From positions 62,001 through 126,000 of the forward strand of contig NZ_PVUF01000007.1 in assembly GCF_003003215.1 (NCBI RefSeq): a DNA stretch of 64,000 nt. Direction: 5' to 3'. Below the pieces are notes generated by a model. It saw only the letters and a program-made list of their open reading frames with translations, did no database searches and was not told the DNA's origin. Positions 3,135 to 46,848 of the stretch are shown piece by piece. Source of the stretch: Tritonibacter scottomollicae (GTDB taxonomy: Bacteria; Pseudomonadota; Alphaproteobacteria; Rhodobacterales; Rhodobacteraceae). Each line of letters starts with the position of its first letter. The stretch's first letter is position 1. Position numbers and translations under genes: made by a program.

Positions 3135-3866
3135 GTGTCGCGAGGGATAGATCGTCGAGTGTTCGGCGAGATCGAAGGAGAGCGCGGCATGGCCAGAGAT
3201 TCAGATACCCGAGATCCAGAGACCGCGCCATGCAACGGGATGAACTGGCGCGATAGGGACCGAGGACAGGCGCGGATCTCGCCCTGCTTTACCCCTGGCA
3301 CGTTGATTGCAACACCGCGTGGAGAGCGATTGGTCGAGAATTTGCAAGTCGGCGACCGAGTTATCACCCGCGACAACGGCATCCAGCAGATCCGCTGGAT
3401 TGGCCACAACGCGATGGGGCGAGAGGGGCTGGCGCGGGCTTCCTATCTGCAGCCGATCCTGATCCGACAAGGTGCGCTTGGCAACGGTCTGCCCGAGCGC
3501 GACATGATGGTCAGTCCAAACCACCGGGTATTGGTGGCCAACGACAAGACCGCGCTTTATTTCGAGGACCGCGAGGTTCTGGTCGCCGCAAAGCACCTGA
3601 CGGGCCTGATCGGTATTGATGCGGTTGAGACCACCGCGGTGACCTATATTCATTTCATGTTCACGCAGCATGAAGTTGTGCTGTCGGATGGCGCATGGAC
3701 CGAGAGTTTTCAGCCCGGTGACCAGTCGCTGCGCGGATTGGACAATGCGCAGCGCAACGAGATATTCGAGCTCTTTCCCGACCTGCGACATGCTGAAGGT
3801 CAAGAGGCCTATCCCTCCGCCCGTCGGACCCTGAGGAAGCGCGAAGCCAAGATGCTGTTGCACTGA
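3135..3866 (+). CDS. stand-alone Hint (Hedgehog/intein) domain protein
   Basis: The protein carries a Hint fold of the Hint_2 type. Cys opens the motif CFTPGTLIATPRGERLVE and is followed by GDRVITRDNGIQQIRWIG. Further on come MMVSPNHRVLV and the HFMFTQHEVVLSDGAWTESFQPGD block. Such domains self-cleave in inteins and hedgehog proteins. In roseobacters they often sit at the C-terminus of secreted calcium-binding proteins, but here the domain is almost alone behind a short polar N-terminus. Two starts are plausible: GTG 3135 eight bases after a near-perfect GGAGGTGAT, or ATG 3189 eight bases after AAGGAG. It converges on the MobA-like gene with 19 bases between. Whether it still cleaves is unknown. 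Confidence 0.8.
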   Translation: MSRGIDRRVFGEIEGERGMARDSDTRDPETAPCNGMNWRDRDRGQARISPCFTPGTLIATPRGERLVENLQVGDRVITRDNGIQQIRWIGHNAMGREGLARASYLQPILIRQGALGNGLPERDMMVSPNHRVLVANDKTALYFEDREVLVAAKHLTGLIGIDAVETTAVTYIHFMFTQHEVVLSDGAWTESFQPGDQSLRGLDNAQRNEIFELFPDLRHAEGQEAYPSARRTLRKREAKMLLH

Positions 3867-44282: not shown

Positions 44283-46373
44283 ATGAGCGGTCGTCCGGAA
44301 CAGCTGTTCCCCCTTTTTGCGGAATTGGAGACATTGCAAGGTGTCGGTCCCAAAACGGCTGAGCATTTTGCACAACTGCGGATCTCCGCACCGCGGGATC
44401 TGCTGTACACTTTGCCCTATAGCGTGGTGGATCGACGGCGGCGTGAAAGCATCCGGGGGCTCGAGCTGCCAACAACGGCCACGGTCGAGGTGACAGTTGG
44501 TCGTCACCGCCCCGCGCGCAACAAGGGGGGCGCCTATCGGATCGACGTGACGGATCAGGACACCGAGTTTCAGCTGGTGTTTTTCCATGGCCGAAGCCGG
44601 TATCTGACGGCGCAACTGCCGGAAGGGTCGCGCCGCGTGGTCTCTGGCAAGCTGGAACTGTTCGACGGCATGGCGCAGCTGGTCCACCCGGACCACATGC
44701 TGCCCGTGGAGGAGGCGGGGGAGATTCCGGATTTCGAACCGGTCTATCCGCTGACTCATGGGATCACCCAGAAGACCATGTTCAAGGCGGTTCAGAGTGC
44801 GATGTCGCGCATGCCGGAGCTGCCGGAATGGATGGATGGTGGCTACAAGGCGAAACAGGGCTGGGAGCACTGGCATGCAGCGGTTGCCGCGGCGCATACA
44901 CCGGGTGGCGCGGAGGACCTTGAACCGGTTGCCCCCGCCCGGGCGCGCCTGGCCTATGACGAGCTGTTTGCGCATCAATTGACGCTGGCGATCGCCCGCT
45001 CCGTGGAGCGGGAGCAGCCGGGGCGTAGCTCCGTCCCCACCGGGAGACTGCAAAGCAAGGTGCTCTCGGCGCTACCCTACAGGCCCACGGGCGCACAGGG
45101 GCGCGCCATCGAGGAAATCACGGCGGATATGGCCTCCGCCCGGCGCATGAACCGGTTGCTGCAGGGCGATGTGGGCGCGGGCAAGACACTGGTGGCCTTC
45201 ATGGCGCTTCTGGTTGCGGTCGAGGCCGGCGGGCAAGGCGTGATGATGGCGCCGACGGAAATCCTTGCGCGTCAACATCTTGAGGGGTTGCAACCGCTTG
45301 CCAATGACGCAGGCGTAGTGCTGGAAATCCTCACGGGACGGGACAAGGGCAAGGACCGCCGCGCCAAGGTCGAGGCCTTGCAACGGGGCGACATTCAGAT
45401 CCTGGTGGGAACCCATGCGGTGTTCCAGCAGGATGTCGGTTTTGCCGATCTGAGGCTGGTGGTCGTTGACGAACAACACCGCTTTGGCGTGCGGCAACGG
45501 ATGGAGCTGGCGGAGAAGGGCAAGCGCGCTGATGTGCTGGTGATGACCGCAACGCCGATCCCGCGCTCGCTGGCGTTGACCCAATACGGCGATATGGAAG
45601 TTTCCATCCTCGACGAGAAACCGCCGGGGCGCAAACCGATCAAGACCGCGATCCTGAGCACCGAACGCATGTCCGAGGTGGTCGATCACCTACGCCGCGC
45701 CATTGCCGAGGGGCGGCAGTGTTACTGGGTCTGCCCCTTGGTCGAGGAATCCGAGGTGATGGATCTGACCGCAGCGGATGAGCGGTTCAAACACCTGCGC
45801 GCTGTGCTGGGCGAGGATGTGGTGGGGCTGGTGCATGGGCAGATGCCCCCGGCAGAAAAGGATGCTGCCATGGCGGCCTTTCAGGAGGGCCGCACGCGGG
45901 TTCTGGTCGCAACCACTGTAATTGAGGTCGGGGTCAACGTGCCCAATGCCTCCATCATGGTGATCGAGCGGGCCGAGATCTTTGGTCTGGCGCAGTTGCA
46001 CCAGCTGCGCGGCCGCGTGGGCCGTGGCACCGCCGAGTCCACATGTCTTTTGATGTATCAGCCGCCGCTCACCGAGGGCGGGCGCAAACGGTTGGAGGTC
46101 CTGCGCCAGAGCGAGGACGGATTTGTCATCGCCGAAACCGATTTGCAGATGCGCGGGGCGGGGGATGTCATCGGCACTGCTCAATCTGGTCTGCCGAGGT
46201 TCCGCATTGCGGATCTGGAGCGGCAAGCGGATCTGATGGCGGTCGCCCAGAGCGATGCCCGTGCCCTGATGACCTCCGATCCTGATCTGACCAGCGACCG
46301 CGGGCGTGCGGCGCGGACCCTGCTGTGGCTGTTGCGGCAGGATGAAGCTATCCGCCTGATTTCCGTGGGTTAA
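44283..46373 (+). CDS. recG: ATP-dependent DNA helicase RecG
   Basis: Reverses stalled forks and branched DNA. 696 residues. It has an N-terminal wedge domain, Walker A LLQGDVGAGKTLVAF, DEQHRFGVRQR (Walker B), ATPIPRSLAL (motif III) and the SF2 motif VI block QLHQLRGRVGRG, as in the family. Begins 14 bases after ligA, so the two DNA-maintenance genes are probably cotranscribed. Followed by an SOS-box region. Confidence 0.95.
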   Translation: MSGRPEQLFPLFAELETLQGVGPKTAEHFAQLRISAPRDLLYTLPYSVVDRRRRESIRGLELPTTATVEVTVGRHRPARNKGGAYRIDVTDQDTEFQLVFFHGRSRYLTAQLPEGSRRVVSGKLELFDGMAQLVHPDHMLPVEEAGEIPDFEPVYPLTHGITQKTMFKAVQSAMSRMPELPEWMDGGYKAKQGWEHWHAAVAAAHTPGGAEDLEPVAPARARLAYDELFAHQLTLAIARSVEREQPGRSSVPTGRLQSKVLSALPYRPTGAQGRAIEEITADMASARRMNRLLQGDVGAGKTLVAFMALLVAVEAGGQGVMMAPTEILARQHLEGLQPLANDAGVVLEILTGRDKGKDRRAKVEALQRGDIQILVGTHAVFQQDVGFADLRLVVVDEQHRFGVRQRMELAEKGKRADVLVMTATPIPRSLALTQYGDMEVSILDEKPPGRKPIKTAILSTERMSEVVDHLRRAIAEGRQCYWVCPLVEESEVMDLTAADERFKHLRAVLGEDVVGLVHGQMPPAEKDAAMAAFQEGRTRVLVATTVIEVGVNVPNASIMVIERAEIFGLAQLHQLRGRVGRGTAESTCLLMYQPPLTEGGRKRLEVLRQSEDGFVIAETDLQMRGAGDVIGTAQSGLPRFRIADLERQADLMAVAQSDARALMTSDPDLTSDRGRAARTLLWLLRQDEAIRLISVG

Positions 46374-46424
46374 TTCCTGCCATCAGCGGCTTGTTCTCTT
46401 GTGTGTTCCACTTTGTTCGCAAAT

Positions 46425-46439
46425 GTTCTCAAAAAGTTC
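46425..46439 (+). promoter_or_regulatory. SOS box (LexA site) GTTC-N7-GTTC
   Basis: GTTC-TCAAAAA-GTTC fits the alphaproteobacterial LexA consensus GTTC-N7-GTTC exactly. Three further GTTC half-sites precede it in 35 bases (46393, 46405, 46415). It lies 81 bases before a 40-residue membrane ORF. Confidence 0.7.
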
Positions 46440-46519
46440 TTTACACGACTCGCGTGAAATGGGAACAAAGGAGCAACAAAGGCGTCGTGAACGCAGACAG
46501 AGGTCGAGGAGGTTTCCAG

Positions 46520-46642
46520 ATGGTCACACAGTTCAAATCCGCATTGCGCAATTCCCAGTCTACCCTGTTGCAGGATGCTCTGGGGGCCGCGTCGCTGGTT
46601 GTGATGTTGGTTGTCGGGCTTCACCTGCCTGGTCTGATCTGA
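46520..46642 (+). CDS. 40-residue SOS-box membrane protein, possible division inhibitor
   Basis: A short frame starting at an ATG seven bases after GAGGAGG, an excellent ribosome-binding site. The polar N-terminus MVTQFKSALRNSQSTLLQ is followed by one membrane helix (LGAASLVVMLVVGLHLPGLI). It begins 81 bases after the SOS box and its transcript would end at the terminator at 46812. A longer frame from 46391 crosses the box and has no convincing N-terminus. Caulobacter SidA is a 29-residue SOS-induced inner-membrane inhibitor of division; size, topology and control match, but sequence likeness was not tested. Confidence 0.65.
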   Translation: MVTQFKSALRNSQSTLLQDALGAASLVVMLVVGLHLPGLI

Positions 46643-46811
46643 ACCACGCCTTTCTTGTTTTTGTAGCTATTTCTCTGTTTTTGCCTGTGCTTTCATGCCG
46701 GGCGCACCAGCCTCAAGTCTTGCAAAGGCCGACTGCCTGTTCGGTCCGCACTAGAGTGTGAACTCCGGTGCTTGGTGTGTCCCGGGTCCCGCATGAAAGC
46801 GCTATGACTTG

Positions 46812-46848
46812 CCGCCGCCATCTGCCCGGATGTGCGGCGGTTTTTTTT
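46812..46848 (+). terminator. rightward terminator after the SOS ORF
   Basis: CCGCCGC-CATC ... GATG-T-GCGGCGG stem with a bulged T, followed by eight T. The 170 bases between the ORF and this stem could also be a 3' UTR or carry a small RNA. Confidence 0.85.

Follow-up and report, generated by a model that had tools for sequence, protein, structure and literature searches.

A candidate LexA-repressed unit after recG in Rhodobacteraceae, with a predicted single-span peptide and a structured 3' UTR

SOS-induced small membrane proteins and RNAs derived from 3' UTRs are known kinds of genetic element, and their combination in one unit, as in the locus described here, appears to be new. TisB of Escherichia coli is an SOS-regulated single-span peptide and, together with DinQ, belongs to the type I toxins with antisense RNAs; in contrast, the present unit is near-universal at one site within one family. 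DinQ, from the same bacterium, is an SOS-regulated peptide alongside which tisB-istR is named (PMC3567139). SidA of Caulobacter crescentus is a LexA-controlled, single-span protein of 29 residues that blocks division via FtsW (PMC4211646). The locus resembles SidA in its SOS-type control, in its alphaproteobacterial host and in a very small product predicted to reside in the inner membrane, with both features of the SidA type, a LexA-type promoter and a short protein with a single predicted membrane span, being found; it differs in that SidA has 29 residues and FtsW as its reported target, whereas the unit encodes 40 residues, follows recG and carries a structured RNA.

In Klebsiella pneumoniae, DinR is a LexA-controlled RNA that is cut from the 3' part of the dinI mRNA and blocks the ribosome-binding site of ftsZ, and the segment of DinR engaged in this pairing is Klebsiella-specific (PMC10907235). 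Judged by sequence, the present locus also has a LexA-type promoter in front of a small-protein mRNA whose 3' part contains an RNA element, and complementarity to the ftsZ leader is likewise proposed; unlike DinR, this RNA has a structure and is shared by many genera of one family. In Rhodobacter sphaeroides, the RNAs CcsR1-4 originate from the mRNA of the small protein CcaF1 (PMC8625941), a further case of regulatory RNA in the 3' UTR of a small-protein mRNA. The CcsR RNAs are induced by oxidative stress and CcaF1 is an RNA-binding protein, whereas the unit has boxes of the LexA type, encodes a membrane peptide and differs in its loop motifs; no curated Pfam or NCBIfam family, of the CcaF1 kind or other, recognises its peptides. 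Another coding RNA of R. sphaeroides, Pos19, is stress-induced, RpoE-dependent and reported only in that species (PMC5036791), and it differs in its RpoE dependence from the unit with its LexA-type boxes.

recG itself appears to be LexA-regulated in some alphaproteobacteria (PMC3323433). The unit is unmentioned in the parts drawn on of the work on Dinoroseobacter LexA sites (PMC6473078), on Ruegeria sRNAs (PMC4809877), on 104 RNA motifs (PMC2864571) and on multi-chromosome LexA regulons (PMC3323433), and the open-access articles searched do not describe a conserved unit after recG that joins a LexA-type promoter with two operators to a 40-residue membrane peptide and a covarying RNA.

Layout and promoter of the unit

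The locus belongs to a stretch of 64,000 nucleotides of Tritonibacter scottomollicae, here called the window, in which the 3' end of recG (44283-46373) is adjoined by a short unit with a 40-codon ORF, while the gene on the far side (47490-46921, minus strand) is convergent and encodes a NifU-like domain. The order within the unit is GTTC half-sites, box, Shine-Dalgarno sequence, ORF, long 3' UTR and terminator (Table 1), with the last extra half-site beginning 10 nt upstream of the box. The original prediction had described a GTTC-N7-GTTC box with extra half-sites, an excellent ribosome-binding site, a 40-residue ORF with one membrane helix and a U-run terminator, all placed directly after recG, and each of these elements is found; absent from it were the reversed LexA-like site and the structured RNA that fills the 3' UTR. 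The terminator, which a pattern scan of this strand did not list, has its stem present both in the fold and in the alignment of relatives (A1).

Table 1. Features of the unit, in window positions
Feature	Position	Strand	Basis
Three extra GTTC half-sites (starts 46393, 46405, 46415)	46393-46418	+	sequence reading
LexA-type operator GTTCTCAAAAAGTTC, GTTC-N7-GTTC	46425-46439	+	matrix rank 1, 17.6 bits; kept in relatives
Probable -35 element TTTACA, abutting the operator	46440-46445	+	inferred from the conserved block GTTCTTTACA
Second LexA-like operator, weaker and reversed, GAACAAAGGAGCAAC	46463-46477	-	matrix rank 3, 13.3 bits
Shine-Dalgarno sequence GAGGAGG	46506-46512	+	sequence; SD-like in 46/48 relatives
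ORF (ATG to stop) of the 40-aa peptide, predicted single-span, MVTQFKSALRNSQSTLLQDALGAASLVVMLVVGLHLPGLI	46520-46642	+	conservation, codon patterns, helix model
Structured RNA core in the 3' UTR, covariance model R1	46682-46809	+	R1 E 1.3e-7; covariation; folding z-score of the window's own UTR -3.83
Intrinsic terminator, GC-rich hairpin and eight T	46811-46848	+	sequence, fold, alignment A1

Among the relatives, recG is directly upstream in 48/48 and the convergent NifU-like gene is present in 39/48, and recG is also seen upstream in 38 of 40 further loci that were picked for a similar ORF; among the peptides of named records, those of Epibacterium, Tritonibacter and Phaeobacter are closest. 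Taken at the level of sequence, this arrangement is very likely a stand-alone LexA-repressed transcription unit of Rhodobacteraceae.

The bare GTTC-N7-GTTC pattern is not above chance in the window (two occurrences versus 1.77 expected), and genome-wide it is found 128 times versus 129 for a reversed-pattern control; the case therefore rests on comparison, and the pattern alone was not used. A LexA matrix of 21 columns was derived only from recA and lexA boxes, 51 in number (24/30 recA loci and 27/27 lexA loci, taken from 31 family genomes each). With this matrix the forward operator ranks first among 127,960 window positions, and its 17.6 bits, compared with training boxes that span 13.3-29.4 bits with a median of 24.8, make it a moderate and not a consensus operator. 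The reversed site, whose GAAC begins 38 nt further on, follows at rank three; the rank-2 site, at window position 3648, appears inside coding sequence and was set aside as chance.

The forward box is kept in all 48 relatives, and the forward site scores at least 9.9 bits in 39 of the 40 further loci, which were picked by ORF similarity alone; values below the weakest training box (13.3) are limited to three of the 48 relatives and, besides locus L259, to five of the 40. The reversed site reaches medians of 15.2 and 11.9 bits in the 48-locus and 40-locus sets respectively, and it is weaker because one of its halves is usually GTTG and not GTTC. Box and downstream GAACA core occur together in 87/88 units, with a spacing of 38 nt in 80, and a third GTTC is located about 10 nt upstream of the box in 69/87; the consensus of the promoter is ttGTTC.CaaATGTTCTcAaAAAGTTCTTTACa(N11)aaaTGAGAACAAAggggCAACAaa. 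The -35 element, which reads TTTACA here and TTGACA in some relatives, would abut the first operator and the -10 element would lie inside the second, a sigma-70 consensus scan of this strand giving no match. L259 is the sole unit of the 88 without the forward LexA box; its ORF extends to 75 aa and its 3' UTR is still matched well by the RNA model R1 (E 2.7e-8).

Distribution and features of the peptide

The 40-aa sequence used alone as the query gave a match at E <= 1 in 251 of 295 same-family genomes (294 genera), and the 48-row alignment A2 used as a profile matched 251/295 Rhodobacteraceae genomes at E <= 0.001, with one match each. The counts over the 48 relatives leave out L021, a 49th locus, and L023-L026, which are chance matches. 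The original prediction had recommended a search of relatives for the ORF and box downstream of recG; both are found, the box in 87 of 88 units. The first profile was also run on 385 genomes sampled across the class, not necessarily with Caulobacter among them, and matched seven, five of the same family and two others, 358 of the non-matching genomes being given without names; the two non-family matches, found among the other 380 genomes, cover the profile only in part and are of marginal significance (E 0.003), and one of them contains an internal stop. The broader profile A7 at E <= 1 gave matches, many of them weak, in 196/385 genomes of the class sample, and its best match outside the family (E 6.6e-4) is within a 486-aa frame. 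The exact GTTC-N7-GTTC box is absent from the 200 nt upstream of 19 non-family A7 regions and of one region of the own genome, which were chosen, among the matches listed, for frames of at most 120 aa, longer ones being left out. Relatives of the peptide are not convincingly found outside Rhodobacteraceae in the class sample. Plasmid- or phage-borne copies were rejected, the search of plasmids and phages giving no match at E <= 0.1, and no Pfam or NCBIfam family recognises the peptides, the divergent set described below yielding only single weak matches (E 0.055 to 0.095).

A separate observation concerns an 85-aa ORF of the own genome (L310:648-905; G000 C4, about 158947-159204), which ends in WGDVLGAISLAIIFGGLLYAPLLWPH and is matched by the peptide profile at E 3.3e-4. 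It has no exact LexA box upstream and is preceded by a 100-aa ORF that is phage-like by eye; a mobile element may here imitate the membrane segment of the peptide.

The remaining 44/295 family genomes have no profile match; 15 of them were tested and 12 gave a recG locus, while the other three matched only part of the recG query, in frames longer than 1,100 aa that are probably Mfd. At 11 of these 12 divergent loci LexA-like boxes and a short ORF come after recG, and the hydrophobic-span test was passed by ten of the 11 short ORFs, the eleventh being judged by eye. Most of the tested genomes that seem to be without the unit thus appear, from their sequence, to have it. A complete reversed GTTC-N7-GTTC is present at 7/12 divergent loci, with 25.4 bits at L269, and the five loci in which both the forward and the reversed box are complete have spacings of 38, 38, 37, 36 and 28 nt; these complete reversed boxes are independent support for the reversed element as a LexA site. 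L276, of genome G050, is a family recG locus without any trace of the unit and a possible natural knockout.

The promoter could in principle belong to another regulator that reads GTTC, its likeness to a LexA box being convergent: an A precedes the second half-site, versus the usual T in the recA and lexA boxes, and the conserved block exceeds one LexA box in length. Such a regulator is very improbable given the matrix ranks of 1 and 3 in the window and the divergent units with complete forward and reversed boxes, 36-38 nt apart in four of the five and 28 nt in the fifth. LexA control of the unit, the SOS-type control that had been proposed for it, is supported by the matrix ranks and by conservation and is held with high confidence.

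The start ATG has the same position in 46/48 relatives and the remaining two have an in-frame ATG two codons upstream, so that ORF and start codon, whose conservation the original prediction had left to be established, are both conserved. A longer in-frame reading (TTG at 46391, 83 aa) was rejected, since in many relatives this frame offers no start codon before the shared ATG. The mean entropy at codon positions 1, 2 and 3 is 0.94, 0.50 and 1.44, the closest ORF pairs carry almost purely synonymous differences (8:0, 10:2, 12:2), and the median dN/dS is 0.35 over 274 less-saturated pairs, the few pairs that reach about 1 being distant ones in which synonymous change is compressed. With such codon patterns the ORF is almost certainly a conserved translated gene.

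Residues D19, G22, L26, L34 and P37 are invariant in A2, and D19, G22, L34 and P37 are still at least 90% conserved in the broader A7; the conserved D sits just before the span and a conserved L-H-x-P is located at the C-terminal end. AlphaFold2 returns a single helix from residue 2 to 39 (mean pLDDT 81, pTM 0.41), the best 19-residue hydropathy window of the window protein begins at residue 22, and the net charge of the first 18 residues is positive in 35/44 sequences, neutral in eight and negative in one. The product is therefore predicted to be a short protein with a single membrane span. The D before the span and the L-H-x-P end would also suit an accessory subunit of some other damage-response membrane complex (a transporter, protease or envelope regulator) that takes no direct part in division, a reading to which the lack of any role-naming match in Pfam, NCBIfam or Rfam is favourable; against it, no candidate partner gene adjoins the unit, whose neighbours are recG (48/48) and the NifU-like gene (39/48), and it is regarded as rather unlikely.

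The RNA of the 3' UTR and its relation to ftsZ

Between the stop codon and the terminator the RNAs of the relatives have in common a closing helix, inner hairpins and a bulge on the 3' side, with CUGCCUG or CCUGUCC located in the leader and in the loops. In the window RNA the closing helix spans about 46687-46802, and TGCCTG is unpaired at 46682-46687 and in the hairpin loop 46734-46739. The two motifs occur 112 times in 48 UTRs, versus a mean of 7.4 and a maximum of 17 in base-shuffled sequences, and their mean unpaired probability is 0.66 versus 0.41 for other C, G and T. The folding z-score has a median of -2.3, with 29/46 UTRs below -2, where 46 of the 48 were used (L018 and L053 left out) and where the cores of L035 and L046, cut short by the terminator pattern, have z-scores that are not meaningful yet counted.

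The covariance model R1, built from 11 sequences, found the RNA in the window together with one chance match elsewhere in it. At E <= 1 it recovered 44 of 49 ORF loci, including 33 of the 38 unused in its building, with 39/49 below 0.01; it also recovered 75/80 named loci, which partly repeat the same genomes, 29/40 further loci (19 of them below 0.01) and 1/12 divergent recG loci (E 0.094). Since R1 misses 5/49, 11/40 and 11/12 loci of the ORF, further and divergent sets, the RNA is not as widespread as the peptide. In 100 family genomes, searched with strict filters by which weak members are missed, 24 had one R1 match each and none had a second; 21 of these 24 adjoin a listed ORF position, the ORF position of the other three not being among those listed. 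The search of 289 class genomes gave five matches, and the two outside the family, L363 and L364, were rejected as units, there being no recG, ORF or box at those sites. Rfam returned no family at its curated cut-off and three matches all far below the gathering scores.

In the model-fitted alignment of the named loci two-sided changes are present in 23/23 pairs, none of 500 shuffles reaches any of five measures, and sliding the pair partners destroys the covariation signal; the other locus set, also model-fitted, has two-sided changes in 22/23 pairs. Model-fitted alignments lean towards the model, and in an unfitted MAFFT alignment two-sided changes are present in 15/22 predicted pairs. That a conserved RNA structure occupies the 3' UTR is, on this covariation and folding, almost certain; it probably has a function besides termination, and the structured RNA may be a product in its own right.

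Pairing of the RNA with its own 5' UTR was not supported, the own partner being stronger than foreign ones in only 22/46, and complements of the loop motif occur in the own 5' UTR in 0 to 3 of 46. These results bear on the possibility of a membrane-active SOS peptide of the TisB/DinQ kind, which would insert in the inner membrane, lower the membrane potential and slow growth, with its synthesis controlled by the RNA. Its size, single helix and LexA control fit DinQ (PMC3567139), and the structured RNA lies in the same transcript as the peptide; however, the 3' UTR pairs no better with the ribosome-binding region of its own mRNA than with foreign partners (22/46), and single matches in 251/295 genomes with conserved D, G, L and P suggest a specific partner more than a generic pore, which leaves a toxin of this kind an unlikely explanation.

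The mRNA of ftsZ was considered as a target following the DinR precedent, and for this reason the comparison was not blind. ACAGGC is found upstream of ftsZ in 21/28 family genomes, of recA in 2/29 and of lexA in 7/27, and the ftsZ leader contains CAGGCGG in 23/28 genomes and CAGGCGGA in 20; ACAGGCGG occurs in 0/600 first-start regions and, if any early start is allowed, in 1/600 genes (parts of two genomes). CUGCCUGU would pair with ACAGGCGG over 8 bp including one G-U, which is kept throughout rather than optimised and in this respect counts against the pairing. Genomes G056 and G063, which have the CAGGCGG of ftsZ and neither R1 nor CTGCCTG at their recG loci, also count against it. The ftsZ leader of G051, without CAGGCGG, reads GGACAGGCAG, the exact complement of CUGCCUGUCC as read in the RNA of other genomes; in G021 the ftsZ sequence and a detectable RNA are both absent.

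Pairing energies, ranked with gene starts from a crude ORF caller, were at least as strong as that of ftsZ in 2/322 first-start genes of G000 (10/322 with any early start), and in 53/278 and 128/278 genes respectively of G022, where ftsZ is unremarkable. Contiguous helices were compared in 15 genomes, each with an RNA that was read and an ftsZ start, G052 being among those left out; the background sites that equalled or exceeded ftsZ made up a median share of 0.073 of 600, with values below 0.05 in 5/15 genomes and above 0.3, corresponding to no useful pairing, in 3/15; the best helix uses the CAGGCGG/AGGCGGA site in only 7/15 and lies elsewhere in G022 and G057. The statistical support is mixed and the ftsZ complementarity is a lead, not a result, ftsZ being an unlikely target. 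Whatever its reason, the ftsZ leader of Rhodobacteraceae has an unusual and strongly conserved ACAGGCGGA before the start codon.

The covariation, the repeated unpaired motifs and the complementarity to ftsZ could also be taken to mean that the unit mainly serves to make the RNA, which would act by base pairing under LexA control and to which the peptide ORF would be ancillary, and several RNAs of R. sphaeroides, CcsR1-4 among them, derive from 3' UTRs (PMC8625941). Nevertheless, the ORF is conserved as a protein and is more widespread than the RNA, and the divergent units keep promoter and ORF with R1 in only 1/12 recG loci, so this is quite improbable.

Possible role in the SOS response

The reading of the original prediction, a possible SidA-like division inhibitor, has kept its LexA promoter, its translated single-span protein and its conservation after recG, whereas the structured RNA had been overlooked. 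In the mechanism proposed here, LexA would keep the unit off by binding two operators, one abutting the -35 element and a weaker one over the -10 element, and DNA damage would release a transcript of roughly 370 nt. From this transcript would be translated the 40-residue peptide, with a mostly positive N-terminal segment and one membrane helix in the predicted topology, while the remaining part would form the conserved multibranched RNA with its repeated unpaired CUGCCUG/CCUGUCC motifs. The most likely role would be a delay of division during DNA repair, in which the peptide would act on a membrane partner, for example the FtsW/FtsI/FtsN complex, like SidA in Caulobacter, and the RNA would be a 3' UTR-derived regulator of translation with ftsZ as the best candidate so far.

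SidA is the obvious parallel for a probably LexA-repressed, single-span peptide with near-universal occurrence in a family of alphaproteobacteria, and that it works like SidA is a reasonable guess drawn from the descriptions of the two. By this analogy, an action of the peptide or of the unit in division control is the best guess, held at somewhat short of even confidence. Decidedly unlikely is a two-armed division checkpoint issuing from one LexA-controlled transcript, in which the peptide would stop septal wall synthesis, the RNA loops would cover the ftsZ ribosome-binding site and ftsZ would have kept its unusual complementary Shine-Dalgarno sequence for pairing with the RNA.

Rhodobacteraceae are abundant marine and model bacteria, and no SOS division inhibitor is described for them in the literature searched; a candidate is offered by this near-universal locus, whose small size would make it easy to miss. 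The RNA joined to the ORF covaries strongly, is without a match in Rfam and lies behind a promoter of the LexA type. If its pairing with ftsZ were true, a LexA-controlled RNA against ftsZ would have arisen independently in two bacterial classes.
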